Shown here piece after piece: positions 14,752 through 33,359 of a stretch of DNA of 64,000 nucleotides. The translations under genes and the position numbers were made by a program. Each line of letters opens with the position of its first letter. Position 1 is the stretch's first letter. The stretch comes from Conexibacter woesei Iso977N (GTDB lineage: Bacteria > Actinomycetota > Thermoleophilia > Solirubrobacterales > Solirubrobacteraceae), in the NCBI RefSeq assembly GCF_000424625.1, contig NZ_AUKG01000002.1, forward strand, positions 1,054,001 through 1,118,000, in the 5' to 3' direction. Below the pieces are notes generated by a model. The model saw only the letters and a list, made by a program, of their open reading frames with translations, made no database searches and was not told the origin of the DNA.

Positions 14752-15087
14752 CTAGAGCGGCTCGGGGATGTCCCCCAGGGGTTCCAGCTCGGCGGCCAGC
14801 GCGGCGTCGGGCCGGCCGGCCTCCAGGTAGCCGAGGATCCGCTCGGCGTGCTGGACCTCGAAGCGCGCCTCGAGCAGGCGGGAGAGCGTCGCGATCTCGC
14901 GCAGCAGCGCCAATCCCTCTACGAGTTCACGCGCGCGCACGTAGGCCCCGACGGTCCGAGATTCGCCCCCCTCCGGATCGTCGAAGAACCCCGCGCCGTC
15001 CACGCGGCGCACCGAGCCGCGGATCGCCGCGGCGTGGTGGTCCTCGGCGGGGTCGGCGACGAACAGGACGAGGTAGGCATCCGGCAT
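14752..15087 (-). CDS. Hypothetical helical protein
   Basis: A 111-residue protein without a recognised family. It begins MPDAYLVLFVADPAEDHHAA, then predicts mainly amphipathic helices (ARELVEGLALLREIATLSRL, ILGYLEAGRPDAALAAELE). The ATG at 15087 is chosen because sequence upstream is the divergent glpD control region; TACCGT lies 10 bases before it. The 36-base gap to the glpD start must hold both promoters or the two share one. No function is offered. Confidence 0.55.
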   Translation of the reverse strand: MPDAYLVLFVADPAEDHHAAAIRGSVRRVDGAGFFDDPEGGESRTVGAYVRARELVEGLALLREIATLSRLLEARFEVQHAERILGYLEAGRPDAALAAELEPLGDIPEPL

Positions 15088-15123
15088 GGCCTGACCGACG
15101 GTACTGCGACACTCCGATCCCAG

Positions 15124-16785
15124 ATGATGGATCGCGCCGACGCCGTGGCCGCCCTCGCGGCCGACGAGTTCGACGTCGTCGTGGTCGGCGGCGGGATCAC
15201 CGGCGCCGGCGTCGCGCTCGACGCCGCCACCCGCGGGTTCTCCGTGGCGCTCGTCGAGCGCCACGACTACGCGTCCGGGACGAGCTCGCGGTCGTCGAAG
15301 CTCGTCCACGGCGGCCTGCGCTACCTACAGAACTTCGACCTCGGCCTGGTCCGCGAGGCGCTGATCGAGCGCCAGATCATGGTCGGCCTTGCGCCGCACC
15401 TCGTCAAGCCGCTGCCGCTGATCGTCCCGGCCTTCGGCGGCGCGCGGCCCGACCGCATGATGGGCATGGGGCTCAACCTCTACGACGTCATGTCGGTGGA
15501 CAAGCTGCGCTCGCCGCTGCGGCGGAGGAACCGCGAGCCGGACCCCAACGAGGCGTGGTCGCCGGACCGCCACCGGATCATCGACGCCGGCGAGGTCGCC
15601 GAGGGCCTCCCGGCGCTCGCGCCGCGCGAGCCGACCTCGGGCTACCTGTTCTACGACTGCCAGACCGACGACTCGCGCCTGGTCCTGACCGTGCTCGGCG
15701 AGGCCGAGCGCTTCGGGGCCGTGTGCGCCAACGGGCTGGAGGTCACGTCGCTGCTGGAGACCGGCGGCCGCGCCCGCGGCGTGCACGTGCGCGACCACGT
15801 GAGCGGCGAGACGTTCCCGGTCCGGGCCGCGAACGTCGTCAACGCGACCGGCGTCTGGGCCGACCGCCTGCGCCCCGGCGAGCTGCACGACGAGGCCGAG
15901 GTGCCGACCATCCGCCCGTCGCGCGGCACGCACGTCACGTTCCGGCGCGAGGACCTGCCGCTCAACGTCGGCGCGATCGTCCCGGCGGGCGGCGGGCGCT
16001 TCATCTTCGCGCTGCCGTGGCTCGGAGGCTCGCTCGTCGGGACCACCGACACCGATTACGACGCGACCGACCTCGACCACGTCAAGCCCGCCGACGAGGA
16101 CCTCGAGTACCTGTTGGAGGCCGTCAACGAGTTCTTCGCGACCGAGCTGACGCAGTCCGACATCACCGGCGCCTACGCGGGCGTGCGGCCGCTGATCTCC
16201 TCGAGCGAGGCGACCCCGGGCAAGTCGGTGGACATCTCGCGCAAGGCCGAGCTGTACGAGACCTCGTCCGGGATGGTCACGATCACCGGCGGCAAGCTGA
16301 CGACCTACCGGCGGATGGCGAAGATGGCCGTCGACCGGCTGGTCGAGCGCGACGCCCGCGACGCGCCGTGCCGGACCCACGAGATCCCGCTCGGCCAGGC
16401 GATCGAGGCATCCGAGCTGCCGCGCGTCGAGGGCGTCCACGACGACGCCTACGCGCCGCTGGCCGCGCGCTACGGGCACGCCGCCCACGACGTCCTGGCG
16501 ATCGCCGCCGAGTCCGGCGCCTACGCGCAGCCGGCGGTCCCGGGCCAGCCGGACCTGCTGGCCGAGGTCGTCCACGCGGCGCGCCGCGAGCAGGCCCGCA
16601 CGGTCGGCGACGCGCTGCTGCGCCGGACCCGTCTGGGCCTGACCGACGCGCGCGGCGCGCGGGCCGCGGCCGAGCGTGTCGCGGGCGCGATGGCGGGCGA
16701 CCTGGGGTGGGACGAGCGGGCCGTCGACGCCGCCGCCGACGCGTTCCTGCGCGAGGCCGCGGCCGAGGGCAACGTCCCCGGCTGA
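15124..16785 (+). CDS. glpD: Glycerol-3-phosphate dehydrogenase, FAD-dependent
   Basis: A 553-residue protein of normal GlpD/DAO family length. The FAD-binding motif is DVVVVGGGITGAGVALDAA, followed by GTSSRSSKLVHGGLRYL, the hallmark of aerobic glycerol-3-phosphate dehydrogenases. GAYAGVRPLI and GGKLTTYRRMA mark the C-terminal side of the fold, and a DAO_C helical domain completes it. It oxidises sn-glycerol 3-phosphate to dihydroxyacetone phosphate and feeds electrons to the quinone pool at the membrane. Two adjacent ATGs (15124, 15127) are equally possible starts. No glpF or glpK is next to it, so regulation by glycerol is not visible here. Confidence 0.93.
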   Translation: MMDRADAVAALAADEFDVVVVGGGITGAGVALDAATRGFSVALVERHDYASGTSSRSSKLVHGGLRYLQNFDLGLVREALIERQIMVGLAPHLVKPLPLIVPAFGGARPDRMMGMGLNLYDVMSVDKLRSPLRRRNREPDPNEAWSPDRHRIIDAGEVAEGLPALAPREPTSGYLFYDCQTDDSRLVLTVLGEAERFGAVCANGLEVTSLLETGGRARGVHVRDHVSGETFPVRAANVVNATGVWADRLRPGELHDEAEVPTIRPSRGTHVTFRREDLPLNVGAIVPAGGGRFIFALPWLGGSLVGTTDTDYDATDLDHVKPADEDLEYLLEAVNEFFATELTQSDITGAYAGVRPLISSSEATPGKSVDISRKAELYETSSGMVTITGGKLTTYRRMAKMAVDRLVERDARDAPCRTHEIPLGQAIEASELPRVEGVHDDAYAPLAARYGHAAHDVLAIAAESGAYAQPAVPGQPDLLAEVVHAARREQARTVGDALLRRTRLGLTDARGARAAAERVAGAMAGDLGWDERAVDAAADAFLREAAAEGNVPG

Positions 16786-16900
16786 GGACGTGCAGCACGA
16801 CGTACGTCGGGCGCGCACCGTAACTTCTCGGGGCCCCGCGGTTTCCCCGACACGACCGCAGCACCGTCTGAACCCCCTTGTAGGAGCCGTCTCGCCGACC

Positions 16901-18757
16901 ATGCGCCGCCGCCTGGCCTTCATCGTCACGACCATCGCCGTCCTCGCAGTGCCCGTGGGCTCTGCTCAGGCCGCCTTCTTCAAGGCGGACGCGGTCGACG
17001 GTCCGTCCGCCGACATCAAGTCGGTGGGCGACATGGACATCGCCCGCGACGGCACCGGCGCGGTCGCCTACGTCAAGGCCGACGGTGGCGTCAACCACAT
17101 CTTCGTCTCGCGCCTCGTCGGCGGCTCGTGGCAGGCGCCCGAGCGCGTCGACGGCGGGCTCGACGCGTCGGCCTCCACGCCGGCGGTCGCCGCTTCCGAC
17201 GGCGGCCGGCTGGTCGTCGTCTACGAGGACGGCGGGAGCGTCTACGCGACCGTCCGCCAGGCCGGTGCGCCGGGCTTCAACGCGCCGCAGCTGATCGGCC
17301 AGGGCGGTGAGACGCCGGACGTCGACATGTCGTTCAACGGCAACGCCTACGCGGTCTTCACGATCAACGGCGACGTCGTCGGCGCGCGGCTGGACCGGAC
17401 CGGCGTGAACTTCGTCGGCCTGACCGCGCCGTTCGACACCGCCCAGGGCAACACCGCGGGCGTCGGCACCGGGCGCCCGAAGATCGCGGTCTCGGCCGAC
17501 GGCACGGGCGTCGTCGTGTGGGGCGAGAACGGCCACGTCTACGCGCGCCGCGTGTTCAACACCGCGCCGTCGACGTCGGTCCTGGACCTCAACCTGTCCG
17601 ACCTCGAGGGCCATCCCGGCGGCACCGCCGACCTGCCCGACGTCGACATCGAGGACGACTCGTCCTACGCGTGGGTCGCGTTCCGCCAGCAGTTCGACAA
17701 CGGCGTGCGCCGCGCGATCGGCGTGCGCCTGCGCGGCTCGCGCACCGATCCGCCGGTCGCCTACGACGGGCTCGGCTGGTCCGGCGTGTCGGCCGACGAC
17801 CCGCCGCGCGTCGACATCAACGGCAAGGGCGTCGGCGTGTTGACGTCCGGCGCGTCGAACGGGACCGCGCTGTCGGCGATCCTCAAGGACGACATCCTGA
17901 ACCCGGCGCGCGCGATCGGCGGCACGGGCGGCGCGACCGAGCCGGTCGGCGCCGTCGCCGAGACCTACGACCGCGCGGTCGGCTGGTACAACCAGAGCGA
18001 CCAGACGATCCAGGGCGCGTTCTACGACGACAAGTCGTCGTCGCGGCTGGTGCCGGGCCCGGGCCCGACCACGCCGCTGAGCAACCCGGACTTCGGCACC
18101 GTCGACCCGGCCGGCGGCTTCGACGTCGCGGGCGACCGCACCGGCGACTTCGCGTTCGCGTTCATCCAGCAGCTGCCCGACGGCGGGCGCCGCCTGGCGA
18201 TCGCCTCCTACGACCGGCTGCCGGGGTCGTTCGCGATCTCGACGTCGTCGAAGCTGTGGCGCAACGTCATCAGGACGCCGCTGGCGTGGGGGACGGCGCT
18301 GGAGCTGTGGGGGAACCTGACCTACACGGTGCTGATCGACGGCAGGCAGGTCGCGCAGTCGCAGACGACGAAGCTGACGCTGCCGGCGGGCGCGGTCCCG
18401 GACGGGCTGCACACCTGGCGCGTGGTCGCGACCGACCGCCGCGGGCAGTCGGTGACGACGGTCGTCAAGCCGCTGAAGATCGACACGACCGCGCCGACCG
18501 TGACGTTCGCGGCCAGGCGCAAGAAGCGCGTCGAGACCGTGACGGCCAGGGCCGCCGATGTGATCCCGCCGTCCGGCAAGGCCGCGGGGATCAGGTACGT
18601 GCGGATCGACTGGGGCGACGGCTCGGCGTTCACGCAGGCGACGAAGGCGACGCACACCTACGCCAGGGGCGGCACGTACACGGTCCGGGTCAGCGCGACC
18701 GACGGGGCCGGGAACGTGGCGGTCGCCGAGCGCGAGATCCACGTGAGCAAGAAGTAG
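16901..18757 (+). CDS. Secreted beta-propeller-like protein with C-terminal PKD domain
   Basis: A 618-residue exported protein. Residues 1-25 are a signal peptide ending in GSAQA. Residues 30-420 consist of recurring short strands with patterns such as DIARDGTGAVAYVKADGG, AVSADGTGVVVWGENG and DRTGDFAFAFIQ, typical of sequence repeats in beta-propellers. The end has an Ig-like part and a PKD domain (IDWGDGSAFTQATKATHTYA, GTYTVRVSATDGAGN). The likely site is the cell surface or medium; the ligand is unknown. TAACTT near 16819 could be the -10 with a leader of about 70 bases. A similar propeller-like protein without PKD is encoded at 57836-59188. Confidence 0.75.
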   Translation: MRRRLAFIVTTIAVLAVPVGSAQAAFFKADAVDGPSADIKSVGDMDIARDGTGAVAYVKADGGVNHIFVSRLVGGSWQAPERVDGGLDASASTPAVAASDGGRLVVVYEDGGSVYATVRQAGAPGFNAPQLIGQGGETPDVDMSFNGNAYAVFTINGDVVGARLDRTGVNFVGLTAPFDTAQGNTAGVGTGRPKIAVSADGTGVVVWGENGHVYARRVFNTAPSTSVLDLNLSDLEGHPGGTADLPDVDIEDDSSYAWVAFRQQFDNGVRRAIGVRLRGSRTDPPVAYDGLGWSGVSADDPPRVDINGKGVGVLTSGASNGTALSAILKDDILNPARAIGGTGGATEPVGAVAETYDRAVGWYNQSDQTIQGAFYDDKSSSRLVPGPGPTTPLSNPDFGTVDPAGGFDVAGDRTGDFAFAFIQQLPDGGRRLAIASYDRLPGSFAISTSSKLWRNVIRTPLAWGTALELWGNLTYTVLIDGRQVAQSQTTKLTLPAGAVPDGLHTWRVVATDRRGQSVTTVVKPLKIDTTAPTVTFAARRKKRVETVTARAADVIPPSGKAAGIRYVRIDWGDGSAFTQATKATHTYARGGTYTVRVSATDGAGNVAVAEREIHVSKK

Positions 18758-18760
18758 GAC

Positions 18761-19522
18761 TTGGGGTCGCCGGACGTCCTGACGCGGCTGGACGGCGAGG
18801 GCGGGCGGTCGGCCCGCGAGGTCGTCGCGGCGCTGGGGCTGTCCGCCGCGGTGACGGCGGGTGGACGGCCGCGGGTGGTCGCCGACATGGTGGCCTCGGT
18901 CGACGGGCGCGCGGCGGTCGACGGGCGCTCGGTGGCGCTGGGCAACCCGGCGGACCGCGCGCTGCTGCGGGAGCTGCGTTGCGCCGCCGACGCGATCCTC
19001 GTCGGGACGGGGACGCTGCGCGCGGAGCGGTACGCGTCGCTGCTGGATGACGACCAGCGCGCGCGGCGGGTGGCTTCCGGGCGCGCCGAGCACCCGATCG
19101 TCGCGACGGTCTCGCGGCGGCTGGAGCTGCCGGTCGACGAGGCGCCGCTGTTCGGCGAGCCGGGCGTGCCGATCGTGGTGTTCACGGAGTCCTCCGCGGC
19201 CCCGCCGCCCGTGGCGGCTGCGCTCACGGTCGTCCGCTTCGCACCCGGAACGCTCACGCTGGCCGGCGCGCTGGGCGCGCTCGCCACGGACTCCGGCGTC
19301 CGGGGCGTGCTCTGCGAGGGCGGTCCGTCGCTGCTGCGCCGCCTGATCGCCGAGGACGCGCTCGACGACCTGCTGCTGACCGTCGCGCCGCTGGCCGTCG
19401 GCGGCGCCGGCCCCGGGATCCTCGACGGCGACGTGCTCGGCCCGCCCGCGCCACGCCTGGCGCTGCGCGACGTGCACCGGTCGGAGGACCACCTCTTCCT
19501 CCATTACGGTCTGCAGCCGTGA
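18761..19522 (+). CDS. RibD C-terminal domain reductase (DHFR-like fold)
   Basis: A 253-residue protein consisting of one RibD_C domain: VVADMVASVDGRAAVDGRS, then LRCAADAILVGTGTLRAERY, GVRGVLCEGGPSLLRRLI and a terminal strand DHLFLHYG. The family reduces pyrimidine or pteridine rings with NADPH. It lacks a deaminase domain, so it is not a full RibD. The TTG start lies 3 bases after the PKD gene's stop and has AGGA close by. Its TGA overlaps the GTG of folP (GTGA), so it is made together with dihydropteroate synthase; a role as the dihydrofolate reductase of this pathway is an attractive inference. Confidence 0.82.
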   Translation: MGSPDVLTRLDGEGGRSAREVVAALGLSAAVTAGGRPRVVADMVASVDGRAAVDGRSVALGNPADRALLRELRCAADAILVGTGTLRAERYASLLDDDQRARRVASGRAEHPIVATVSRRLELPVDEAPLFGEPGVPIVVFTESSAAPPPVAAALTVVRFAPGTLTLAGALGALATDSGVRGVLCEGGPSLLRRLIAEDALDDLLLTVAPLAVGGAGPGILDGDVLGPPAPRLALRDVHRSEDHLFLHYGLQP

Positions 19523-20415
19523 ACCTCGTCCTCCGCGACCGCTCCTTCGCCCTCCGGCCCGGCCGGCCGCTGGTGATGGGCATCGTCAACGCCAACCCGG
19601 ACTCGTTCAGCGACGCGGTCCGGACGACGACGCTCGACGCGCAGGTGGCGCTGGCGGTCCGGCTGTGCGAGGAGGGCGCGGACGTCATCGACGTCGGCGG
19701 CGAGTCGGGCGTCACGTACACCGGCGTGACGGCGGAGGAGGTCGAGCGGGATCGCGTCGTCCCGCTGGTGGAGCGGCTCGTCGCGGAGGGGATCTGCGTG
19801 TCGGTCGACACGTGGAAGGTCCCGGTCGCCGAGGCCGCGCTGGCGGCGGGCGCGCACGTGCTCAACGACGTCTCCGGGCTGCGAGATGTAGGCCTTGCCC
19901 GTGCGGCGGCGAAGCACGACGCGTCGCTGGTCGTCATGCACACGCGCGCCGAGCCCAAGGTGGAGCACTTCGCCGACTACGGCGGCCGTGTCGTCGAGGA
20001 CGTCGTGTCGTTCGTGCATGAGCGGTGTGAGATCGCGATGGCTGAGGGCGTCAGCGCGGCGCGGCTGATCGTCGATCCGGGCCCGGACTTCGCGAAGTCG
20101 CCCGCGGAGAGCGTGGAAGTGCTCCGGGAGATCGATGCGCTCCGTGCGCTGGGACATCCCTGGCTGGCGGCGGTGTCGCGCAAGTACTTCCTGGCCGCGA
20201 TCACCGGGCGGCCGCCGGCCGAGCGGCTGGCGGGCACGCTGGCGGCGGTCGGCTTCGCGGCCGATCGCGGCGCGGCGATGGTCCGGGTGCACGACGTCGC
20301 GGCGACGGTGGACTTCCTGGCGGTGCGTTCGGTCCTGAACGGTGTGGAGGAGATCGGCGCGTTCGACGCCGACGACGACGCGCTGAAGTGGATCCGGGCG
20401 ACACCCTCGCCCTGA
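19519..20415 (+). CDS. folP: Dihydropteroate synthase family protein
   Basis: A 298-residue TIM-barrel protein. DHPS signatures are MGIVNANPDSFSDAV, GADVIDVGGESG, SVDTWKVPVAEAAL, HVLNDVSGL, VVMHTRAEP, IVDPGPDFAKSPAESVEVL, SRKYFLAAITGRPPAERL and MVRVHDV. It would join 6-hydroxymethyl-pterin diphosphate to p-aminobenzoate. It departs from the textbook enzyme in loop 2 (GGESGVTYTG where GGESTRPG is usual) and in DPGPDFAK for DPGIGFGK. Thus it may be a divergent DHPS or a paralogue of the FolP2 kind. The GTG start overlaps the stop of the RibD_C gene. Confidence 0.82.
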   Translation: MNLVLRDRSFALRPGRPLVMGIVNANPDSFSDAVRTTTLDAQVALAVRLCEEGADVIDVGGESGVTYTGVTAEEVERDRVVPLVERLVAEGICVSVDTWKVPVAEAALAAGAHVLNDVSGLRDVGLARAAAKHDASLVVMHTRAEPKVEHFADYGGRVVEDVVSFVHERCEIAMAEGVSAARLIVDPGPDFAKSPAESVEVLREIDALRALGHPWLAAVSRKYFLAAITGRPPAERLAGTLAAVGFAADRGAAMVRVHDVAATVDFLAVRSVLNGVEEIGAFDADDDALKWIRATPSP

Positions 20416-20481
20416 CATCCGCGCGAGGTCGTCGGACGTCTGCCCGGCGAGTTCGCTACGGTCCGGCGGACTGGAGAGTCG

Positions 20482-20510
20482 CCGGCTCGCTGCATTGCAA
20501 CGCGAGCCGG
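20482..20510 (+). promoter_or_regulatory. Leader hairpin upstream of the Rho-like gene
   Basis: A perfect 9-bp stem, CCGGCTCGC with GCGAGCCGG, closes an 11-base A/T-containing loop in the 132-base gap before 20548. No T-run follows. It could be a structured leader; Rho genes are autoregulated in other bacteria, but the mechanism here is not visible. Confidence 0.4.
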
Positions 20511-20547
20511 ACGCCCACCGACACCTGTAACAACGAGGAGGACCAAC

Positions 20548-22014
20548 ATGTCCGTCATCACCCGTTCCGCCCTTGAGGCGTCCCCGCTCGCCGACCTGCA
20601 CGCGATCGCGTCCGAGCTCGGCATCGACGGCTTCCGCCGCCTGCGCAAGGCCGACTTGGTGAACAAGATCATCGAGCAGCAGGGTGGGGAGGAGGCCGTC
20701 GCGGCGGCCGCCGCCGAGGCCGGCGAGGACACCGCCGAGGAGAAGCCGAGGCGCACGCGTTCCCGCGGTGGCCGCGGCACGCGCTCGCGCAAGAGGGACG
20801 ACGAGGAAGAGGGCACGACCGACGAGGGCGCGGGCGAGGCCGACGAGGACGTCGTCGCGACCGAGGACGTGGCGGTCGAGGAGGCCATCGAGGAGGAGGC
20901 CGCCGAGGCCGACGTCGAGACCGAGGCCGAGGCCGAGGAGGTCAGGCCGCGCCGCCGCTCGCGTGGCGGCCGGGGCCGTGGGCGCGACCGGGATCGCGAC
21001 CGCGATGAGGACGACTCCTCCGCCGACGAGGCGCCGGAGCCGCGCGGTGGGCGTGACCGCGACCGGGATCGGGACCGCGATCGCGGCGACGACCGGGACC
21101 GCGACGCCGACGCGCGCGTCATCGAGGGCACCGTCGAGCTGCTGCCCAACGGGTCCGGGTTCGTGCGCCTCACGCCGCCGGAGCCGTCCGACGACGACGT
21201 CTACGTCTCGGCCGCGCAGGTGCGCCGCTGCGAGCTCGTCTCCGGCGACGCCGTCGGCGGGCCGGTGCGCGAGCCGCGCCGCTCGGAGCGCTACCCGTCG
21301 CTGATCCGGATCGACACGATCAACGGGCGCCCGGCCGACGAGGTCGCCGAGGGCACGCACTTCGACGACCTGCCGTGCGCGCTGCCGTCCGAGCGCCTGG
21401 CGCTGGGGTCCGACGACGCGACGCTCAAGGCGGTCGAGTGGCTGACGCCGATCGGCAAGGGCTCGCGCGTCACGATCACCGGCGCCGCGCACGCCGGCAA
21501 GTCCGAGGCCTTGAAGCGCCTGGCGGGCGCCGTTCGCGGGATCGAGGGCCTCGAGGTCCACGTGGTCCTGGCGGCCGTCCGCCCGGAGGAGTGCGCGGAG
21601 TGGCGCGCCGGTGAGATCGAGCCCGTCGCCGCGCTGTCGCTGGGCGCGTCGGCCGACGCGTCGGGCCAGGCGGTCGAGCGTGCGATCGACACCGCCAAGC
21701 GCATCACGGCGCGCGGCGGCGACGTCGTCGTCCTGATCGACGGCCTGGACGCGCTGGCGCCGCACGCGGCGCGCCGCGCCCTGGCGGCCGCCCGCAACGT
21801 CGTGGACGGCGGCTCGCTGACGATCGTCGCGACCGCGTCGGAGCCGGTCGGCGGCGAGACCACGATCATCGCGCTGGACCGCACGCTGACGCAGACGAGG
21901 CGCTTCCCGGCGATCGACCTGGTCGCCTCGGGCACGATCCGCCCGGAGCTCCTGGTCGGCGACGCGGGCGCCGACGCCATCGCGCAGGCCCGCGCCCAGG
22001 CGCTTGGCGCCTAG
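20548..22014 (+). CDS. rho: Rho-like transcription terminator, catalytically atypical
   Basis: A 488-residue protein with GAGGAGGA before the ATG. Residues 5-45 are the Rho N domain (ADLHAIASELGIDGFRRLRK); 60-190 a long acidic then RD-repeat, arginine-rich insert as in actinobacterial Rho; 190-260 the RNA-binding cold-shock-like domain (GTVELLPNGSGFVRL, DDVYVSAAQVRRCEL). The ATPase half starts with a P-loop GAAHAGKS (312-319) and Walker B DVVVLID (392-398). Compared with E. coli Rho, the catalytic DERPEE is AVRPEE, the segment holding the Q-loop (TGGVDANAL) is deleted, the R-loop (EEFKGTGNMEL) is shortened, and about 60 C-terminal residues are absent. Either a divergent lineage-specific Rho or a regulatory paralogue. 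Confidence 0.82.
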   Translation: MSVITRSALEASPLADLHAIASELGIDGFRRLRKADLVNKIIEQQGGEEAVAAAAAEAGEDTAEEKPRRTRSRGGRGTRSRKRDDEEEGTTDEGAGEADEDVVATEDVAVEEAIEEEAAEADVETEAEAEEVRPRRRSRGGRGRGRDRDRDRDEDDSSADEAPEPRGGRDRDRDRDRDRGDDRDRDADARVIEGTVELLPNGSGFVRLTPPEPSDDDVYVSAAQVRRCELVSGDAVGGPVREPRRSERYPSLIRIDTINGRPADEVAEGTHFDDLPCALPSERLALGSDDATLKAVEWLTPIGKGSRVTITGAAHAGKSEALKRLAGAVRGIEGLEVHVVLAAVRPEECAEWRAGEIEPVAALSLGASADASGQAVERAIDTAKRITARGGDVVVLIDGLDALAPHAARRALAAARNVVDGGSLTIVATASEPVGGETTIIALDRTLTQTRRFPAIDLVASGTIRPELLVGDAGADAIAQARAQALGA

Positions 22015-22472
22015 CGCACGCCTGATCGAACGCTCGACCCTCGCCGCCGGCGCACTCGCGCTGGCGGCGTCGTCGTTCCTGCCCCTGCTCGCGCCGTGGA
22101 CGGACCCGCGCTGCGGCTGGACGTGCTACACGCCGCTCGCGCCCGGGGAGAGCCCGCCCGCTCCTCCGCGCCCGATCTCCGGGACGACGTTGTGGGACAC
22201 GCGCCCGTCGCTCGCCGTCCTGACCCTCGCGGCGGCGGCGCTCGCGGTCGTTGTCGGCCTGACGGTGCGCCATCTGCGCGCGACGCGTCGCGGCAGGGGC
22301 AGTGGTCCTCACGGTCGCGCTCCTGGTCGCTGACACGGCGCACCTCTCGGGTGCGGTGATCCGCCACCGTGACGTGCTCTACACCACGGCGTGGCTCGCT
22401 CTGCCGGTGGCCGGCGGCCTGGTCGCCGCGTTGGCGCTCGCGCTCGGCGACGAGCGTCAGCGCGGGACGTAG
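22004..22472 (+). pseudogene. Membrane protein split by a probable frameshift
   Basis: Two overlapping frames together look like one four-helix membrane protein. Frame A runs from the TTG at 22004 (overlapping the rho end) to 22333 and gives helices LAAGALALAASSFLPLLAP and LAVLTLAAAALAVVVGL; its last 15 residues are Arg/Gly-rich nonsense. Frame B, readable from about 22280 to the TAG at 22470-22472, gives VAAGAVVLTVALLVAD and TTAWLALPVAGGLVAALALA. A one-base change between about 22280 and 22300 would join them. Alternatively they are two small coupled genes (a GTG is present at 22302). I cannot tell a sequencing indel from a real mutation. Confidence 0.45.
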
Positions 22473-22930
22473 GCGACCCGGCCCCACGAGGGCTCGGGCG
22501 CCAGCTCGACGGGCTCGCCGTCGCGGTCCGGCTGGACGTACATGAAGGAGCTGGTCTCGGCGTCGAACTCGACGTCGAGCTCGCCCTCCTTGACGCGCTG
22601 GTCGAGCCAGGCGGAGCGGAAGACGAGGCGGCGCAGCCAGTGCACGAGCGAGCGGTCCGACGGGCCGACCAGCTCGGGCCAGCAGTCGTTGACGTGCTCG
22701 CCGAGGCCGGAGGCCGGCTCCTGGATCTCGCCGTTGACGGAGAGCGTCACGAGGTCCTCGAGCTCGGGGTCGTCCAAGCGGCCGGAGACGAACCCCAGCT
22801 TGTTGGCGGCCTGCTCGCAGCGCTCGCGGAAGTCGCGCTCGTTGAAGGTGAACCGGAGTTCGCCGTATTCGAGGACGAAGTCCTCTCCGCTGTCGTAGTT
22901 GCCTCGGCGTGCGTCGTTCATGAAGGTCAT
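22457..22930 (-). CDS. Hypothetical acidic protein
   Basis: A protein of about 157 residues without a recognised family: GNYDSGEDFVLEYGELRFTF, NKLGFVSGRLDDPELEDLV, HWLRRLVFRSAWLDQRVKEG and SWGRVAYVPR are distinctive segments. It is soluble and acidic, with beta-strand-rich halves. The start is uncertain: ATGs exist at 22921, 22930, 22981 and 23014; 22930 is used because the conserved-looking part begins soon after. Its 3' end overlaps the end of the split membrane protein frame by 16 bases (convergent). It is divergent from the response regulator at 23139. Confidence 0.55.
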   Translation of the reverse strand: MTFMNDARRGNYDSGEDFVLEYGELRFTFNERDFRERCEQAANKLGFVSGRLDDPELEDLVTLSVNGEIQEPASGLGEHVNDCWPELVGPSDRSLVHWLRRLVFRSAWLDQRVKEGELDVEFDAETSSFMYVQPDRDGEPVELAPEPSWGRVAYVPR

Positions 22931-23138
22931 GCGTGGTTCAGTCGCGCCGAGGTGGACGGCGGCTCCCGAAGTCGTCGGCATCGTATGCCCGATCCCTTCG
23001 GATTCGCAGGTCATGGGATGGATCTTGCAGTCCGTCCGCCGGACCTGCCGTCCGTCGTACCGGTCCCGGGGGATTCGCGTTCGGACCGATCGTCCCTTGT
23101 GGGGGGAGAGTTCTTGCGTCCCCGACCCTAGAGGGGGC

Positions 23139-23912
23139 ATGACCCTCGAGACCCGCCCCACGATCCTGATCGCCGAAGACGACCCCGGGACGCGGAGGTT
23201 CCTGGGCGACCAGCTGACGCTGGACGACTGCGACGTCGTCTCGACCGACGACGCGGGCGGCGCGTTACGCGCGCTGGCGACGAAGTTCCCGGACCTGCTG
23301 CTGCTCGACGTCTCGCTGGCGGAGGGGACGTCGGGGCTCGACGTGCTGCGCACGGTGCGCGCCGCCGACAGGGCGACGTCGAGGATCGACCCCTACATCC
23401 CGATCCTGATGCTGTCGGGGCGAAGTCGGACGACCGAGCGCGTCCGGGCGATGGAGCTGGGCGCGGATGCGTACCTGTGCAAACCATTCGCGTATGCCGA
23501 AGTGCACTCGCACGTCCGCGCGCTGCTGCGGCGGGCGGCGGGGCGCGACCGGACGGCGCGGGTGCGCGTCGGGGCGCTGGAGATCGACCCGGGCGCGCGG
23601 ATGGCGTGGCTGTCGGGGCGGCCGGTGAGGTTGACGTCCACCGAGTTCACGCTGCTGCGCGCGCTGGCGGCGGCGCCGGCGACGGTCCGGACCAAGAACG
23701 AGCTGGTCAGGGCGGTGTGGGGCTACGAGGGGCGGACCACGAGCCGCACGCTGGACTCCCACATCTGCCGCCTGCGGGCGAAGCTGCGGACGCCGGACGC
23801 GACGTTCATCCACAACGCGTGGGGGATCGGCTACCGCCTCGTCGACGACCCCGTCGCGCCGCCGGAGCTCGTGCCGTCCCGCCGTCACGCGTTCGCCGCG
23901 GTCGCGCGCTGA
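23139..23912 (+). CDS. OmpR/PhoB-family response regulator
   Basis: A 257-residue regulator. The receiver domain shows ILIAEDDPGTRRFL, the phospho-acceptor in PDLLLLDVSLAEG, and Lys in DAYLCKPFAYAEV. The winged-helix domain covers the last 100 residues (GRPVRLTSTEFTLLRALA, LVRAVWGYEGRTTSRTLDSHICRLRAKL, WGIGYRL). AGAGGGGG precedes the ATG by 4 bases. The stop overlaps the ATG of a small histidine kinase (TGATG). Together with the tad genes downstream it probably controls pilus expression, which is inferred from position only. Confidence 0.92.
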   Translation: MTLETRPTILIAEDDPGTRRFLGDQLTLDDCDVVSTDDAGGALRALATKFPDLLLLDVSLAEGTSGLDVLRTVRAADRATSRIDPYIPILMLSGRSRTTERVRAMELGADAYLCKPFAYAEVHSHVRALLRRAAGRDRTARVRVGALEIDPGARMAWLSGRPVRLTSTEFTLLRALAAAPATVRTKNELVRAVWGYEGRTTSRTLDSHICRLRAKLRTPDATFIHNAWGIGYRLVDDPVAPPELVPSRRHAFAAVAR

Positions 23913-24613
23913 TGGTCGTGCTGCTCCTGATCTGCGCGCTGTTCGCGCTGCCGCCCGCCGTGGCGACCGCGACGACGCTGGCCGCCGTGGCGGTCGCGGC
24001 GCTGCATTGGTGGCTGGCGCGCCGCCTGCGCCGCCGCGCGACCCGGACGGCCCACGAGGTCCGCCAGCCGCTGACCGCCGCGCTGCTGGCGCTCCACGGC
24101 GCCGCACGTCGCGGCGAGGTGCCGCCCCGCGTCGTCGCGTCGTTGGAGCTGGAGCTGCGTCGCGCGGCCTTCGCGCTGTCGGACCCGTCGGAGGCCACGC
24201 CCGCCGACGTCGACCTCCACGACCTCCTCACCGCGCAGGCCCAGACCTGGCGCGAGGTCGCGGCGGCGCACGGCGCGACGCTGGTCCTCGAGCCTGGCCC
24301 CGGAACGCCGGTCGTGCACGCCGACACGCTCCGTCTGGCCCAGGTGACGAGCAACGTCCTGGCCAACGCGATCGAGCACGGGGGAGGGCAGATCACGATC
24401 CGCACCGTCGCGATCGGCGACCGCATCCGCATCGAGGTCACCGACGGCGGCCCCGGACTCCCGTCCTCCATCGCCGAGCTCTCCCGCCGCCCCCGCGGCC
24501 CCCACGGCCACGGCCTCTCCATCGCCACCTCGGCACTCCGCCACACCCAAGGCCACCTCTCACCCAACCCCTCCGGCATCACCATCGACCTCCCAGCCAA
24601 AGCCACCCCATGA
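23912..24613 (+). CDS. Small membrane-anchored sensor histidine kinase
   Basis: A 233-residue kinase, much shorter than usual. It has two N-terminal helices (LLLICALFALPPAVATATTL and an adjoining segment) with practically no external sensor loop, then HisKA with the phospho-accepting His in TAHEVRQPLTAALLAL, and an HATPase domain with N-box NVLANAIEHGG, G1 EVTDGGPGLP and G2 GPHGHGLSIA. The missing sensor domain suggests that it senses the membrane itself or a partner. It is coupled to the preceding regulator by a TGATG overlap. The last 60 codons lie in a C-rich, G-poor stretch. Confidence 0.88.
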   Translation: MVVLLLICALFALPPAVATATTLAAVAVAALHWWLARRLRRRATRTAHEVRQPLTAALLALHGAARRGEVPPRVVASLELELRRAAFALSDPSEATPADVDLHDLLTAQAQTWREVAAAHGATLVLEPGPGTPVVHADTLRLAQVTSNVLANAIEHGGGQITIRTVAIGDRIRIEVTDGGPGLPSSIAELSRRPRGPHGHGLSIATSALRHTQGHLSPNPSGITIDLPAKATP

Positions 24614-24708
24614 CCACCCCAACCCACCCAACAACACCCGACACCGCCACTCCTCGCTGCGCCATCGCCCTGCGCGCGGCCGGCCCATCGACGGAGGCGG
24701 CGCCATGA
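24610..24708 (+). CDS. Possible 32-residue coupling ORF
   Basis: An ATG overlaps the kinase stop (ATGA), and the ORF ends in a TGA that overlaps the ATG of the SAF-domain gene (ATGA again). The peptide is Thr/Pro/Ala-rich (MTTPTHPTTPDTATP...) and shows no domain. It may only keep ribosomes moving between two genes or may be chance. Two similar gap-filling ORFs are present in this locus at 29941 and 30902. Confidence 0.25.
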   Translation: MTTPTHPTTPDTATPRCAIALRAAGPSTEAAP

Positions 24709-25382
24709 CCCGCCGTCGCCGCACCGCGGCGCTGCTCGGCCTGGCGGCGCTCCTGGGCGGCCTCGCGGCGTCGGACGTCGCGGGCCGCGAGGCCGCGCTG
24801 GACCGGGCTCTCGGGCCGACCGTCACGGTCGTCGTCGCGCGCACCCAGATCACCGCGGGCACGACGCTCGACACCCGGAGGCTCACGGTCCGCCGCGTCC
24901 CCGCACGCTTCGCGCCGCACCTGGCCTACGCCTCACCCGACATCGTCGCCGGCGCCCGCGCGGCGGCCGACCTCCAGCCGGGCGAGGACCTCACACCCGC
25001 CGCGATCGACGACGGCTCCACGCCGGCCGGTGCTCCCGTCCGTCCGGGCGAGCGCGTCGCCGAGCTGGTCGCGGACGGCCCGGGGTCGCTGATCCACCCG
25101 GGTTCGCGCGTCGACGTCCTCGTCACCCGCTCCGGCGCCGACGGCGCGTCGGGCACGACCTCCGTGGCCCTCGAGGACGCCGAGGTGCTCGCCGCCCACG
25201 CCCAGCCCGACGACGCCGGCCACACCACCCGCGTCGCGGTCTCGCTGCGCACGACCGCGCGCCAGGCCGTCTACCTCGCCGCGGCACAGTCCTTCGCCCG
25301 CGACCTGCGCCTCCTGCCGCGCGCCACGGGCGACCGCCGCCACGGCCTGGCGGGCACGACGATCGGCTCCGACCTGCGATGA
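24705..25382 (+). CDS. SAF-domain protein, CpaB/RcpC-like pilus assembly
   Basis: A 225-residue protein with an N-terminal membrane helix (TAALLGLAALLGGLAASDV), then a SAF domain: VVVARTQITAGTTLDTRRLTV and AGARAAADLQPGEDLTPAAI. The C-terminal half (PGSLIHPGSRVDVLVTR, DAEVLAAHAQ, TTRVAVSLRTTARQAVYLAAA) matches CpaB/RcpC, which in tad systems sits in the envelope near the secretin or pilus channel. In this Gram-positive-type genome it would help guide the pilus across the wall. GGAGG is 9 bases before the ATG. It is followed by the calcium-binding secreted protein. Confidence 0.8.
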   Translation: MTRRRRTAALLGLAALLGGLAASDVAGREAALDRALGPTVTVVVARTQITAGTTLDTRRLTVRRVPARFAPHLAYASPDIVAGARAAADLQPGEDLTPAAIDDGSTPAGAPVRPGERVAELVADGPGSLIHPGSRVDVLVTRSGADGASGTTSVALEDAEVLAAHAQPDDAGHTTRVAVSLRTTARQAVYLAAAQSFARDLRLLPRATGDRRHGLAGTTIGSDLR

Positions 25383-25519
25383 CCGGCGCGATCGCACCCG
25401 ATCCCCACCGGTCGAGGTCCTTGCGCGGACGTCTTTGCACCCTCGGCCAACCGTCCAGCCCGGGGTCCCCACCTCAAGGCTTCCTGAGCACGACCGATAC
25501 CCCGGGCCGAGGCCAACTC

Positions 25520-27292
25520 ATGCTGCGAATCCTTCGTTCCCTTTCTCCCGCCCTCGCGGTCGCCGTTCTTGCGGCTCCCGCGGCTGCCCACGCCGCACCG
25601 GTCGTGAAGAAGGCCGGTGCCGCGACGTCGAAGAAGGCGTCCACGAAGAAGTCTGCGAAGACCAAGAAGAAGACGGTCAAGGCCGTCTACCCGACGGTCA
25701 ACTCGATCTCGCCCCGCAAGATCCAGATCGGCCAGAAGCTCACGGTCAAGGGCACCGGCTTCAAGCCGGGCAAGGGCAAGAGCAGCGTCGCCTTCTACAA
25801 GACCGGCCAGCCGGTCATCTTCGTCAAGGCCGACTCGGCGACCGCGACCAAGCTCGTCGTCACGATCACGCCGAAGGTCGCCGCGCTGCTCGTCGTCAAG
25901 AACGACGTGCCGGTCGCGACGCTCCTGCGCCTGCGCGTCATCGGCACGAAGATGAGCCGCACCTGGACGAAGAACAGCCGCTCGCCGATCGTCTCGCCGC
26001 TCCCGAACGCGCCGGTCGGCCAGGGTGGGTCGCTGACCGCTCAGCAGGCCGCGGCGCAGGTCTACCAGAGCTGCCAGGACAACGCGAAGACCAATCCTGC
26101 CGGCGACAACGACGCCGACAACATCGACAACGCCACCGAGCTGGCCAACTCGATGGATCCGTGCAACGTGGACACCGACGGCGACGGCATCTCCGACGGC
26201 TACGAGTACCGCTCGGCCGAGGACCTCAACGGCCACTCGGCGCCGCACTACCCGTCGACGCGCCCGTGGCCGAACCCGCTCGACCCGACCGACATCAACT
26301 CGGACTTCGACGGCGACGGCCTCATGATGTGGCAGGAGAACAAGCTCTGGAAGGCCGCCACCGGTGGCGCCTTCCCGCTGACCGCCTACAGCGACGGCAC
26401 CCAGAACTCCGGCGGCAAGGTCCCGGTGACGGAGGCCACCAAGTGGCTCGACCTCGACGGTGACGGCAACCTCACCGACGACGAGCGCGACGAGGACAAC
26501 GACGGCCTCTCCAACTTCGTCGAGTTCAACTCCACCGGCACCCAGGCCTGGTGGAAGTCGGTCCAGTGGGATGTCAAGCCGCACGTCGGTATCGCCAGGT
26601 ACACCGAGAGGCCCTACACCGCTCGCCTGTTCAACGACGTTGACGCGAGCAACCCGGACACCGACGGCGACGGCATCCCGGACGGCGCCGACGACCAGGA
26701 CAACGACGGCTGGCCGAACTTCGTCGAGATGCAGCTGGACCGCGATGAGGTCGGCTACCGGGTGAACCCGTACAACCCGTGCCTGCCGAACCCGCACGCC
26801 TCGGTCTGCAGCCGTCACGTCCCGATGGACCCGTCGCAGCGCTGGGCTCCGTGGGACGCGGTCAACGACACGACCACCAGCCAGATGCCGGAGGACGCGA
26901 TCCCGTTCAGCTGGCCGGCTCAGATCAACTACAGCAACTGGTCGACGGCCTCCCCCAACCCGAGCCCGGCTCCGGCGACGCTGCCGCCCCTGAACACGCC
27001 GTGGAACACGCCGGGCACTTGGTACGGGGGCAGCGCCTACCAGGGCGACCTGGACGCCATCCACGACCCCTACGTCGCCGCAGCGGACCCCGCCGATCCT
27101 GCCGCCGTCAGGGCCGCTGATGCTGCCGGCTGGGTGGCCGCGCTCGCGAAGCTGCCCGGGTTCTCGTCGGACCCCCGCTACCCGGACCCGTACCCGAACG
27201 TCTGGCAGCCGATCGCCTTCGGCTCCTGGGATCCGGCCCCGTGGTTCACGTCGGCGTGGGGCAACGCGATGGCCGGCGGCGAGCAGGGCTAG
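25520..27292 (+). CDS. Secreted protein with IPT/TIG domain and calcium-binding repeats
   Basis: A 590-residue protein. Residues 1-26 are a signal peptide ending in AHAAP; 30-52 are lysine-rich (SKKASTKKSAKTKKK). Residues 55-140 look like an IPT/TIG fold (YPTVNSISPRKIQIGQKLTV, VKGTGFKPGKG). The rest carries EF-hand/thrombospondin type 3-like loops: NVDTDGDGISDGYEYRS, SDFDGDGLMM, LDGDGNLTDDERDEDNDGLS and NPDTDGDGIPDGADDQDNDG. Calcium-stabilised surface adhesin or matrix protein is a reasonable inference. The ATG at 25520 is chosen because the signal peptide starts there. It lies inside the tad region, followed by a strong terminator. Confidence 0.78.
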   Translation: MLRILRSLSPALAVAVLAAPAAAHAAPVVKKAGAATSKKASTKKSAKTKKKTVKAVYPTVNSISPRKIQIGQKLTVKGTGFKPGKGKSSVAFYKTGQPVIFVKADSATATKLVVTITPKVAALLVVKNDVPVATLLRLRVIGTKMSRTWTKNSRSPIVSPLPNAPVGQGGSLTAQQAAAQVYQSCQDNAKTNPAGDNDADNIDNATELANSMDPCNVDTDGDGISDGYEYRSAEDLNGHSAPHYPSTRPWPNPLDPTDINSDFDGDGLMMWQENKLWKAATGGAFPLTAYSDGTQNSGGKVPVTEATKWLDLDGDGNLTDDERDEDNDGLSNFVEFNSTGTQAWWKSVQWDVKPHVGIARYTERPYTARLFNDVDASNPDTDGDGIPDGADDQDNDGWPNFVEMQLDRDEVGYRVNPYNPCLPNPHASVCSRHVPMDPSQRWAPWDAVNDTTTSQMPEDAIPFSWPAQINYSNWSTASPNPSPAPATLPPLNTPWNTPGTWYGGSAYQGDLDAIHDPYVAAADPADPAAVRAADAAGWVAALAKLPGFSSDPRYPDPYPNVWQPIAFGSWDPAPWFTSAWGNAMAGGEQG

Positions 27293-27325
27293 CGCCCCCG
27301 CGTAACCGACCCTCAGAAGTTCCAT

Positions 27326-27358
27326 CACTTGGCCCGGCGGCGTCCGCCGGGCCAAGTG
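27326..27358 (+). terminator. Strong terminator hairpin after the calcium-binding protein gene
   Basis: A perfect 15-bp stem, CACTTGGCCCGGCGG with CCGCCGGGCCAAGTG, closes a 3-base CGT loop. No T-run follows on either strand, but the stem is exceptionally stable. It separates the secreted-protein gene from the MFS gene. Confidence 0.65.
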
Positions 27359-27361
27359 CGT

Positions 27362-27367
27362 TAACTT
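27362..27367 (+). promoter_or_regulatory. -10 element, leaderless start
   Basis: TAACTT lies 8 bases before the GTG at 27376, directly after the terminator hairpin; no ribosome-binding site is present. Confidence 0.45.
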
Positions 27368-27375
27368 GCCCGCGC

Positions 27376-28743
27376 GTGCGGCGTCTGCTCCTGCTCCTCT
27401 GCGCGATCGTGTTCGTCGACACGGTCCTCTACGCCGTCGTCGCGCCGCTGCTGCCGCACTACGCCGACGACCTCGGCCTGTCGAAGGCCTCCGCCGGGAT
27501 CCTGCTGGCCGCCTACCCGGCCGGGACGCTCGTGGCGTCGCTGCCGAGCGGCCTGCTCGCCGCCCGCGTCGGCCCACGCCGGACCGTCCTGCTCGGCCTC
27601 GTCCTGCTCTGCGGGGCGAGCCTCGCCTTCGCCCTCGGCCGCAGCGCCACCGCCCTCGACTCCGCCCGCCTCGTCCAGGGCCTGGCCGGTGCCTGCACCT
27701 GGGCGGGCGCCCTCTCCTGGCTGGTCACCAGCTCACCACCATCTCGTCGCGGCGAGCTGATCGGCACCGTCTTCGGCGCCGCGATCGTCGGCGCCCTGTT
27801 CGGCCCCATCCTCGGCGCAACCGCCACCGCTCTCGGCACCACCCCCGTCTTCGGCACCCTCACCCTCCTCATCGCCACCCTGACCCTTCTCGCCGCCCAC
27901 GAGCCCGAGCCACCCACCACACCCGACGCTCTCGCCACCGACGACTCCACCTCCTCCGCCGCGCCTACCGCCCTCGGGGTGACCGCGGCCGCCCCTTCCT
28001 CCGCACCCGACGCTCTCGCCACCCACGCGGCGTCCCCTGCGCCCGCGCCCGAGCACATCCACTCCGCCGGACCCGGCACTCTCGCCTCCACGCCGCCGCC
28101 CGCCCCCGACGCACCCGGCACGCCACCACGCACCACCGCCCAACCCGCGTCCCTCCGCGCCACCCTCGCCTCGCGCCGCGTCCGCCTTGGCATGTGGCTC
28201 GTCGTCATCCCCGGCCTCGGCTTCGGCGTGCTCGACGTCCTCGTCCCGCTCCGCCTCGACCACCTCGGCGTCGGCCAGGCCGGCATCGCCGCGACGTTCC
28301 TCATCGCCGCCGCCGGCGAGGCCCTCCTCAGCCCGCTCGTCGGCCGCGTCGCCGACCGCCACGGCCCGGGCCGCCCGATCCGCGCCGGCCTCATCGCCTC
28401 AGCGTTGTTGGTGCTCTTGATCCCGGTCCCCGACACCGCGCCGTTGACCATCATCTTGATGGTCCTCGCCACCGGGGCGTTCGGCATCTTCTGGGCACCG
28501 TCGATGTCGATGCTCTCCGCCGCGGCCGAACGGATCGGCACCCACCAGGGCATCGCGTTCGGTCTCGTCAACCTCGCCTGGGCGGCGGGGATGGTCACCG
28601 GCGCGGCGGGCGGTGGCGCGCTGGCGAAGTCGACCTCGGATGCCGTCCCGTGCATCGTCCTCGCCGCGATCTGCCTGGCCACGTTCGCCGCACGTCCGCG
28701 ACCGGACACCCCTGGGGGAGAACCCACGCCCGCCCACCCCTAG
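27376..28743 (+). CDS. MFS transporter with a long low-complexity central loop
   Basis: A 455-residue transporter with 12 predicted helices. Motif A is GLLAARVGPRRTVLLG after helix 2, and the second half begins LGMWLVVIPGLGFGVLDVLV. Between helices 6 and 7 a cytoplasmic loop of about 100 residues is made of Ala/Pro/Thr/Ser with repeated PDALAT-type units (PDALATDD, PDALATHA, PDAPGTPP). The GTG is chosen because the first helix begins at once and TAACTT is 8 bases upstream. The cpaF ATG comes 7 bases after its stop, so it may be transcribed with the tad genes. Substrate unknown. Confidence 0.85.
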   Translation: MRRLLLLLCAIVFVDTVLYAVVAPLLPHYADDLGLSKASAGILLAAYPAGTLVASLPSGLLAARVGPRRTVLLGLVLLCGASLAFALGRSATALDSARLVQGLAGACTWAGALSWLVTSSPPSRRGELIGTVFGAAIVGALFGPILGATATALGTTPVFGTLTLLIATLTLLAAHEPEPPTTPDALATDDSTSSAAPTALGVTAAAPSSAPDALATHAASPAPAPEHIHSAGPGTLASTPPPAPDAPGTPPRTTAQPASLRATLASRRVRLGMWLVVIPGLGFGVLDVLVPLRLDHLGVGQAGIAATFLIAAAGEALLSPLVGRVADRHGPGRPIRAGLIASALLVLLIPVPDTAPLTIILMVLATGAFGIFWAPSMSMLSAAAERIGTHQGIAFGLVNLAWAAGMVTGAAGGGALAKSTSDAVPCIVLAAICLATFAARPRPDTPGGEPTPAHP

Positions 28744-28750
28744 AGAGGGC

Positions 28751-29944
28751 ATGGACCAAGCCCTCGACGCCCTCGCCGACCGTCTCCACGACCGCCTGCT
28801 CGCCGACGCCGGCGACGCCCGCGGTAGCCCCCTGCCGGAGCGCATCGACGCCCTCGTCGACCGCGAGGCCGGCCTGCTCGACGCGCCCATCCGCGCGGAT
28901 CTCGCCGCGCGCGTCGCGCGCCGCTCGTTCGGCCTCGGCCCGCTCGAGCCGCTGCTCGCCGACCCCGACGTCGACGAGATCATGGTCAACGGCGCCGGCC
29001 GCCGCGTCTGGGTCGAGCGCGCCGGTCGGCTGGGGGAGAGCGACGTCCGCTTCGCCGACGAGGCCGAGCTCCGCCACGCCATCGAGCGGATCCTCGCGCC
29101 GCTCGGCCGCCGCGCCGACGAGGCCGAGCCGATGGTCGACGGCCGCCTCAGGGACGGCTCGCGCGTCAACGTCGTGCTGCCGCCGCTTGCGGTCGACGGC
29201 CCCGTGCTCACGATCCGCCGCTTCCGCGCGCGCCCGCTCGACGCCGACGCGCTCACCGACACCGGCACCTGGACCGCCGACGTGCGCGCCTTCCTGGCCG
29301 GCGCCGTCGCGGCGCGGCGCAACATCGTGGTGTCGGGCGGGACCGGCTCCGGCAAGACCACCACCTTGAACGCGATGTCCTCGTTCATCGACCCCGGCGA
29401 GCGCATCGTCACGATCGAGGACACGGCCGAGCTCAAGCTCCAGCAGCCGCACGTCGTGCGGCTGGAGGCCCGCCCGCCGAACGTCGAGGGCCGCGGCGCG
29501 GTGACGCTCCGCGATCTCCTCCGCAACGCGCTGCGCATGCGACCCGACCGCATCGTGATCGGCGAGATCCGCGGCGGCGAGGCCCTCGAGATGCTCGCCG
29601 CGATGACGACCGGCCACGACGGCTCGCTCTCGACCGTCCACGCCGGCTCGCCGACCGAGGCCCTCCGCCGCATCGAGACCCTCTCCTTGATGGCCGACAT
29701 CGACCTCCCGCTCGCCGCGATCCGCGACCAGCTCGCCGACGCCATCCACCTCATCGTCCACCAATCCCGAACCCCCAGCGGCGCCCGCACCATCACCACC
29801 ATCTCCGAAGTCCTCCGCATCGCCTCCGGCCCAGCCACCCACGACATCTACACCTCCAAACCAACCCCAACCTGGTACCACCCAACCAACCCCGCCCTCA
29901 CCACCCTCACACCCCTCATCCACAACCTCGACAACCCCCGATGA
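28751..29944 (+). CDS. cpaF: Tad/Flp pilus assembly ATPase CpaF (TadA)
   Basis: A 397-residue secretion ATPase. The N-terminal domain has RRSFGLGPLEPLLADPDVDEIMVNG, typical of CpaF. Walker A is SGGTGSGKTTT (about 195-204), the Asp box is IVTIEDTAEL, and Walker B is RIVIGEIRGGEALEML (about 268-282), followed by the His box TGHDGSLSTVHAGSP. It powers assembly of a Flp-type pilus with TadB and TadC. GAGAGGGC precedes the ATG. The last 40 codons lie in a strongly C-rich, G-poor segment and encode an unusual Thr/Pro-rich tail. The stop overlaps the ATG of a 37-residue ORF. Confidence 0.93.
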   Translation: MDQALDALADRLHDRLLADAGDARGSPLPERIDALVDREAGLLDAPIRADLAARVARRSFGLGPLEPLLADPDVDEIMVNGAGRRVWVERAGRLGESDVRFADEAELRHAIERILAPLGRRADEAEPMVDGRLRDGSRVNVVLPPLAVDGPVLTIRRFRARPLDADALTDTGTWTADVRAFLAGAVAARRNIVVSGGTGSGKTTTLNAMSSFIDPGERIVTIEDTAELKLQQPHVVRLEARPPNVEGRGAVTLRDLLRNALRMRPDRIVIGEIRGGEALEMLAAMTTGHDGSLSTVHAGSPTEALRRIETLSLMADIDLPLAAIRDQLADAIHLIVHQSRTPSGARTITTISEVLRIASGPATHDIYTSKPTPTWYHPTNPALTTLTPLIHNLDNPR

Positions 29945-30054
29945 CCGCCCCTCACACCGCCCATCCTCGGCGGCACCGTCTCTCGCGTTCGGGGCGCGGC
30001 GTGATCGCGGCGCGGCTTGCTTCCCTCGAGTGGTCCGGCAGCGGTGCCACGTGA
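29941..30054 (+). CDS. Possible 37-residue coupling ORF between cpaF and tadB
   Basis: The ATG overlaps the cpaF stop (ATGA) and its TGA shares its last base with the tadB ATG (TGATG), so the ORF exactly spans the gap. The peptide begins MTAPHTAHPRRHRLSRSG and has no recognisable domain. It may exist to couple translation, or may be a relic. Confidence 0.3.
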   Translation: MTAPHTAHPRRHRLSRSGRGVIAARLASLEWSGSGAT

Positions 30055-30905: not shown

Positions 30906-31129
30906 CCATCATGCTGCCGCGGCTTCGAGCGCACCCGACTGTTGGCCATCGTGACGACGCTCACAGCCTCAAGCACACCATGTCGCTCCAACTCCCAGCA
31001 ACGGCGCCGTCACCCGTGCAAGAACATCATGTTGCCCCGGCCTCCGGGACGTGCCTGTCGTCAGCCGCCGAGGCGATGCCGCGAAACCAAGTCCATCAGG
31101 TTGTCATGGCCCTGGGCGGTTCCGGCTGA
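30902..31129 (+). CDS. Possible 75-residue ORF filling the tadB-tadC gap
   Basis: The ATG overlaps the tadB stop (ATGA) and the TGA overlaps the tadC ATG (TGATG). The peptide (MTIMLPRLRAHPTVGHRDDA...) is hydrophilic, His-rich and without a helix, so it is not a pilin. Its first 15 bases repeat the start of tadC with one mismatch, and a further copy of ATCATG[C/T]TGCC lies at 31026. The base composition is visibly less G+C-rich than the neighbours. It could be a duplicated and decayed gene start that still couples translation. Confidence 0.35.
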   Translation: MTIMLPRLRAHPTVGHRDDAHSLKHTMSLQLPATAPSPVQEHHVAPASGTCLSSAAEAMPRNQVHQVVMALGGSG

Positions 31130-31971: not shown

Positions 31972-32037
31972 CCCGCGCCTCCGCCTCTTACGTCCGCCCA
32001 CCGTCGGTCCTCCGTCGCGGCTGCACTCGCGCTGGTG

Positions 32038-32103: not shown

Positions 32104-32184
32104 TTCGGCCCGGCGTCGCACCGCCAGGGTCCCGCCGCCGCTCCGCCAACCCACCCGCCACCCGCGCCGTCGCGCGCTTCTCGC

Positions 32185-32190: not shown

Positions 32191-32197
32191 CCCGCCG

Positions 32198-33354: not shown

Positions 33355-33359
33355 TGGTG

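Follow-up and report, generated by a model that had tools for sequence, protein, structure and literature searches.

Rho ends transcription by extracting the transcript from RNA polymerase (RNAP); it forms a ring-shaped motor that is regarded as essential in many bacteria. We analysed a rho gene in a 64,000-nucleotide stretch of the Conexibacter woesei Iso977N genome (contig NZ_AUKG01000002.1, positions 1,054,001 to 1,118,000; hereafter the window), and conclude from its sequence and those of its relatives that the motor has almost certainly been lost by evolution in the sole Rho of the Solirubrobacterales, an order of soil bacteria. The gene and the features of its product are collected in Table 1.

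Table 1. Features of the window's rho gene and the protein it encodes (coordinates are those of the window; aa, residue numbers in the protein).
Feature	Position	Strand	Basis
rho gene, motor-less Rho, 488 aa	20548..22014	+	Open reading frame (ORF), ATG start; the genome's only Rho and only Rho RNA-binding-domain match
Rho_N domain, aa 9-45	20572..20682	+	Pfam PF07498, E 2.7e-10, above cut-off
Linker, aa 47-190, low complexity, Arg/Glu/Asp/Gly-rich (RGG and RD runs), weakly conserved	20686..21117	+	Sequence, conservation
Cold-shock/S1-like primary RNA-binding domain, aa 193-263	21124..21336	+	Pfam PF07497, E 1.6e-21, above cut-off; residue counts
Walker A GAAHAGKS, aa 312-319, Lys (K318) present	21481..21504	+	Alignment
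AVRPEE, aa 343-348, in place of DERPEE; catalytic Glu gone, Arg valve and EE retained	21574..21591	+	Alignment
Walker B DVVVLID, aa 392-398, Asp (D398) present	21721..21741	+	Alignment
Q-loop deletion junction (E. coli about 272-291 gone)	21742..21798	+	Alignment
R-loop deletion junction (E. coli about 322-335 gone), with family-specific invariant GGET	21826..21864	+	Alignment
SGTIRPELL and shortened C-terminus; Arg finger (E. coli R366) replaced by Ile	21928..22011	+	Alignment

The window protein has the same order of domains as the Rho of E. coli and M. tuberculosis and of the families TIGR00767 and NF006886, with Rho_N followed by the RNA-binding domain and a RecA-type ATPase fold. Both of the first two domains score over their Pfam cut-offs, and the primary RNA-binding site keeps the equivalents of F64, R66, D78, Y80, R88, E108 and R109, with F62 changed to Ser. 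The Walker A Lys and Walker B Asp expected of a Rho are likewise in place. What distinguishes the protein from Rho lies in the remainder of its RecA-type domain, which is shortened. The catalytic Glu is missing (E. coli E211 corresponds to V344), as is the Arg finger (R366 corresponds to I464). The segment from LIDGLDAL to AAARN is about 20 residues short in the alignment, the missing residues being those that contain TGGVDANAL in E. coli; only SEPVGGET remains of the EEFKGTGN segment; and the chain ends 19 residues past SGTIRPELL, so that the C-terminal helices of E. coli Rho are gone. The protein falls far under the score cut-offs for Rho (180.7 bits against 509.45 for TIGR00767, 192.5 against 315 for NF006886). 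It is Rho-like, yet its 131.9 bits for the short-form Rho paralogue (NF041509) compare with a cut-off of 628, and its score for the Pfam ATP-synt_ab domain, 27.8 bits, is slightly below the cut-off of 29.5. The original prediction, made from the letters of the window, had listed the P-loop, Walker B, AVRPEE, the losses in the Q- and R-loop segments and the early C-terminus, and the ORF and alignment bear out each of these features. The loss of the Arg finger goes beyond that list, as does the loss of R353 in nearly all relatives; the window Rho itself retains an Arg at this position.

An AlphaFold2 model of residues 189-488 (pLDDT 93, pTM 0.89) predicts that the core fold is that of Rho. The best structural match of the model is E. 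coli Rho 48-390 (Z 28, 296 of 300 residues, rmsd 4.9, 32% identity), and the next best are F1 alpha chains. The alpha subunit of F1-ATPase binds nucleotide without hydrolysing it, and the window protein resembles it in its RecA-type fold while lying outside that family. By analogy with F1 alpha/beta, a place as regulatory subunit alongside a full-length Rho in a mixed ring, one of the roles suggested in the original prediction, would account for a non-catalytic Rho. In contrast to F1 alpha, however, the window Rho has no catalytic partner. The search for a second full-length Rho that the prediction had called for was run over the genome (5.70 Mb in 9 contigs, 96.6% complete), and none was found with any of the four queries used (ATP-synt_ab, the window protein, TIGR00767 and the Rho RNA-binding model). 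Matches at C1:512k belong to a FliI-like ATPase, and those at C2:296-299k are, by score and gene arrangement, the alpha and beta genes of ATP synthase. Within the order, no genome has more than one match to the Rho RNA-binding domain, apart from a weak, below-cut-off extra match in G024. Because the genome holds no second Rho, the mixed ring is refuted as far as an assembly of this completeness allows, and we assign it a negligible probability.

The anatomy of the window protein recurs in the 89 distinct sequences of its family (f1) and in f2, f3 and f4, the remaining families of the order, which rules out an assembly error, chance or a pseudogene. We surveyed the key residues (E. coli numbering) in these sequences and in 10, 9 and 4 members of families f2, f3 and f4. 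In f1 the Walker A Lys K184 is present in 87 of 89 sequences, the Walker B Asp D265 in all and the Arg valve R212 in 88, and 28 positions of the ATPase domain, K318 and D398 of the window protein among them, are at least 97% identical. The catalytic Glu E211 and the Arg finger R366 occur in none of the 89 (the latter position being L, I, M or V throughout), R353 survives in three, and the Q- and R-loops are gone. A retained nucleotide pocket without the catalytic Glu is what characterizes the non-catalytic F1 alpha subunit, and the residue pattern of f1 is that of a subunit predicted to bind nucleotide without hydrolysing it. At the primary RNA site, F64, R66, D78, Y80, R88, E108 and R109 are mostly retained in f1, f2 and f3; E108 and R109 are kept in f1, where the K115 equivalent is Arg in 89 of 89, and Ser replaces F62 in f2 and in almost every f1 sequence. 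That the f1 nucleotide pocket is nearly invariant speaks for a nucleotide bound there, whether as a structural element or as a switch. This pocket and the primary RNA-binding domain remain under selection, the residues for hydrolysis being gone.

The ATP site is broken differently in each of the four families. Neither K184 nor E211 occurs in f2; f3 has E211 in eight of nine sequences and K184 in none (Arg in eight); and f4 has neither residue and has also lost the majority of the RNA-binding residues. The Q-loop columns, the R-loop Lys and the Arg finger are missing from every sampled member of f1 to f4, and no sampled member of the order combines the Walker A Lys with the catalytic Glu. These patterns bear on the suggestion, also part of the original prediction, that the protein is a minimal Rho with another catalytic residue. 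Such a working terminator ATPase would need a substitute acid, for which the family-specific invariant E437 in GGET is a candidate, and another grip on RNA. Walker A, Walker B and the Arg valve are indeed retained, and GGET is invariant in f1. However, the Arg finger, both RNA-gripping loops and the C-terminal helices were lost together with the Glu, and other families of the order have instead lost Walker A, so that a working ATPase seems highly improbable. Since the Arg finger, which acts in trans, and the loops that grip RNA are gone besides the Glu, it is very unlikely that the window Rho is a translocating motor.

We considered how far this state of Rho extends. The scan took in 61 genomes from the genus, the family and the order (the named relatives being mostly Solirubrobacterales, Solirubrobacteraceae, Solirubrobacter, Conexibacter, Paraconexibacter and Patulibacter). 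None has a Rho above the TIGR00767 cut-off, and a Rho-like gene below it is present in all except four drafts, which are 65-78% complete. In the class as a whole, 42 of 199 genomes have a Rho above the cut-off, and these belong to families f6, f8 and f9. Neither the whole-protein nor the RNA-binding model found a Rho in f5, f7 and f10 among the genomes listed, where the few weak whole-protein matches cover the ATPase region only; the same absence holds for genus g44 of f3 among the high-quality genomes listed. Normal, motor-less and absent Rho therefore coexist within one class, and the sister families of the order have either a normal Rho or none. In one single-contig genome (G035, locus L050), rho is apparently split over two frames, possibly as a frameshifted or decaying copy.

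A wider survey covered 396 genomes of Actinomycetota, requested at a completeness of at least 90%, with the low scorers inspected. A Rho above the cut-off was found in 334. Loci inspected in f63, f20 and f35 (L203, L204, L205, L210, L219, L221 and L222) show further damaged motors, in which Arg or Thr has replaced the Walker A Lys or the entire motif is gone. In all five genomes of f35 (G373, G261, G505, G464 and G457), Walker A reads AGRT, ADGT or ADGA or is lost, along a gradient of damage whose extreme, G261, lacks Walker A, the Walker B Asp and the C-terminus. Genome G420 of f63 has GGRS at Walker A and no Arg finger, and G324 of f20 has AGTT. Because the Rho tree places these cases with their own families, apart from the Solirubrobacterales, the sequences indicate that loss of the motor with retention of the RNA-binding domain has recurred independently in at least three other lineages of Actinomycetota. 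The original idea of a lineage-specific Rho is right for the whole order, but comparable losses arose independently beyond it in f35, f63 and f20.

The motor-less gene shares its descent with ordinary Rho. In the RpoB tree the order forms one clade (100/99), with f1 beside f2, f3 and f4, and in the Rho tree it is split from all other Rhos at 100/99. In 13 of 14 f9 loci the gene immediately upstream of normal rho is transaldolase-like, and the same gene precedes motor-less rho in 3 of 9 loci of f3, 3 of 10 of f2 and 16 of 93 of f1, the upstream gene in 68 of the 93 f1 loci being dihydropteroate-synthase-like. One downstream neighbour is common to all four families of the order. The shared transaldolase-rho neighbourhood, taken with the Rho tree, indicates that the window gene is a vertically inherited orthologue of the ordinary Rho of the class. 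The neighbourhood being that of normal Rho, neither gene transfer nor a paralogue is supported as its source. None of the four families has the Q-loop, the R-loop or the Arg finger, and the order is a single RpoB clade; these elements were therefore probably lost in its common ancestor, with the ATP site probably damaged afterwards, family by family.

A gene that usually adjoins rho across the order, P0001 (window 22460-22927, minus strand), encodes an uncharacterised acidic protein with no Pfam match and 64-88% identity. It is found in most of the class whatever the state of Rho, and none was seen in the listed genomes of f6 and f9. We rejected this downstream neighbour as a partner of Rho, since its presence in the class does not follow the Rho state.

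Selection on the motor-less gene has been relaxed and is still present. The median dN/dS of f1 (Nei-Gojobori, two core domains) is 0.37 for the RNA-binding domain and 0.53 for the ATPase domain, compared with 0.11 and 0.09 in the normal Rho of the class; given the high GC content and partial saturation these values are rough, and the comparison between groups is their useful part. Purifying selection on f1 Rho is thus stronger on the RNA-binding than on the ATPase domain. A dN/dS of 0.45-0.5, compared with roughly 0.1 in normal Rho, favours a scenario of decay, where Rho-dependent termination became dispensable in the class, the motor was lost first and the remainder is following. The lineages without a detectable Rho among the genomes listed (f5, f7, f10 and one genus of f3) point the same way, as does the loss of Walker A and most RNA-binding residues in f4. 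However, sampling of many genera across the order found an intact gene in nearly all of them, the 28 near-invariant ATPase positions of f1 are hard to reconcile with decay, and conservation is higher in the RNA-binding than in the ATPase domain. We therefore regard decay as an unlikely, though serious, explanation.

If the motor is gone, the ends of transcripts might be sought in intrinsic terminators, which we counted in samples of 60 kb (window 15001-35000 and loci L223-L240). In these samples, which are small, rest on home-made gene calls and come from genomes of differing GC content, the window has 5 U-tract terminators where 3.8 are expected, and other motor-less genomes have 3-5; one Rho-less genome has 2 (2.5 expected) and one with a normal Rho has 23 (10.5 expected). 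No excess beyond chance was found in the 60-kb samples of motor-less and Rho-less genomes, which give no sign of compensation by such terminators. Hairpins lacking a U-tract are modestly enriched downstream of convergent genes, and likewise in relatives with a normal Rho, in what are small and exploratory samples.

The closest experimental counterparts of the f1 protein are point mutants of the catalytic Glu. In M. tuberculosis Rho, E386A abolishes hydrolysis and unwinding without drastically altering ATP binding, RNA binding or oligomeric state, and termination requires a hydrolysis-competent site; in E. coli, E211A abolishes hydrolysis and leaves ATP binding intact (PMC4499133). The window protein is like these mutants in retaining nucleotide and RNA sites with the hydrolytic Glu removed. 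It differs in being natural and order-wide, and in lacking the Arg finger and the secondary RNA site as well. Two further observations are relevant to what such a protein might do: the N-terminal domain of Rho carries RNAP contacts (PMC8828861), and an allosteric step ahead of translocation has been proposed from E. coli complexes (PMC9908020). No prior description of a motor-less Rho was found in the open PMC literature; one survey (10.1099/mic.0.067462-0) lay outside that search, and an earlier mention is possible.

Taken as a whole, the evidence is best explained, in our judgement and by a modest preference, by a vertically inherited sole Rho from which the motor has been removed and which has been retained in a non-translocating role. 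The original proposal that the protein may bind nucleotide and RNA while hydrolysing ATP poorly or failing to translocate is well supported in sequence: the catalytic Glu, Arg finger and Q- and R-loops are gone, and the Walker A Lys, the Walker B Asp and most primary-site residues are near-fixed. We suggest that the protein would hold ATP or ADP as a ligand with a structural or switching function, and that its cold-shock domain and Arg-rich linker would bind RNA, either nascent or free. Without translocating, it might then dock on RNAP through its N-terminal domain and pause or destabilise the polymerase; alternatively, it might shelter RNA. For Rho of the f1 type, such an ATP-bound role on RNA or RNAP is an attractive but tentative proposal. 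Extended to the Solirubrobacterales as a whole, the idea of a natural ATP-binding, non-hydrolysing Rho that acts on RNAP or nascent RNA without translocating is doubtful.

Several observations weigh against this reading. The Walker A Lys is missing from f2 and f4, so that ATP binding cannot be required order-wide; f4 has also lost most of its primary-site residues; selection is relaxed about fivefold relative to normal Rho; and some related lineages have lost the gene outright. The missing Lys of f2 and f4 also favours reuse as a different kind of RNA-binding protein. It might, for instance, be an RNA chaperone or a scaffold for condensates that relies on the cold-shock domain and the disordered, Arg-rich linker, and the ATPase fold would then serve only as a scaffold. 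The RGG/RD-rich linker and the conserved RNA-binding domain would suit such a protein, and Bacteroides Rho is reported to form condensates (PMC13269538). The almost invariant nucleotide pocket of f1 speaks against it, and we rate reuse as somewhat less probable even than decay.

It would appear, then, that the order either uses a Rho without a motor or is slowly discarding Rho. The loss of catalytic residues from the sole Rho of an order contrasts with the picture of high conservation of these residues among divergent Rho factors (PMC8828861), and the annotation "transcription termination factor Rho" would mislead for the Solirubrobacterales. If a motor-less Rho is indeed in use, the disputed translocation-independent step of Rho action would become testable in a living lineage. 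The order, beside sister families with a normal Rho or none, provides a natural experiment on whether Rho can function without translocation and on how transcription ends without the motor.
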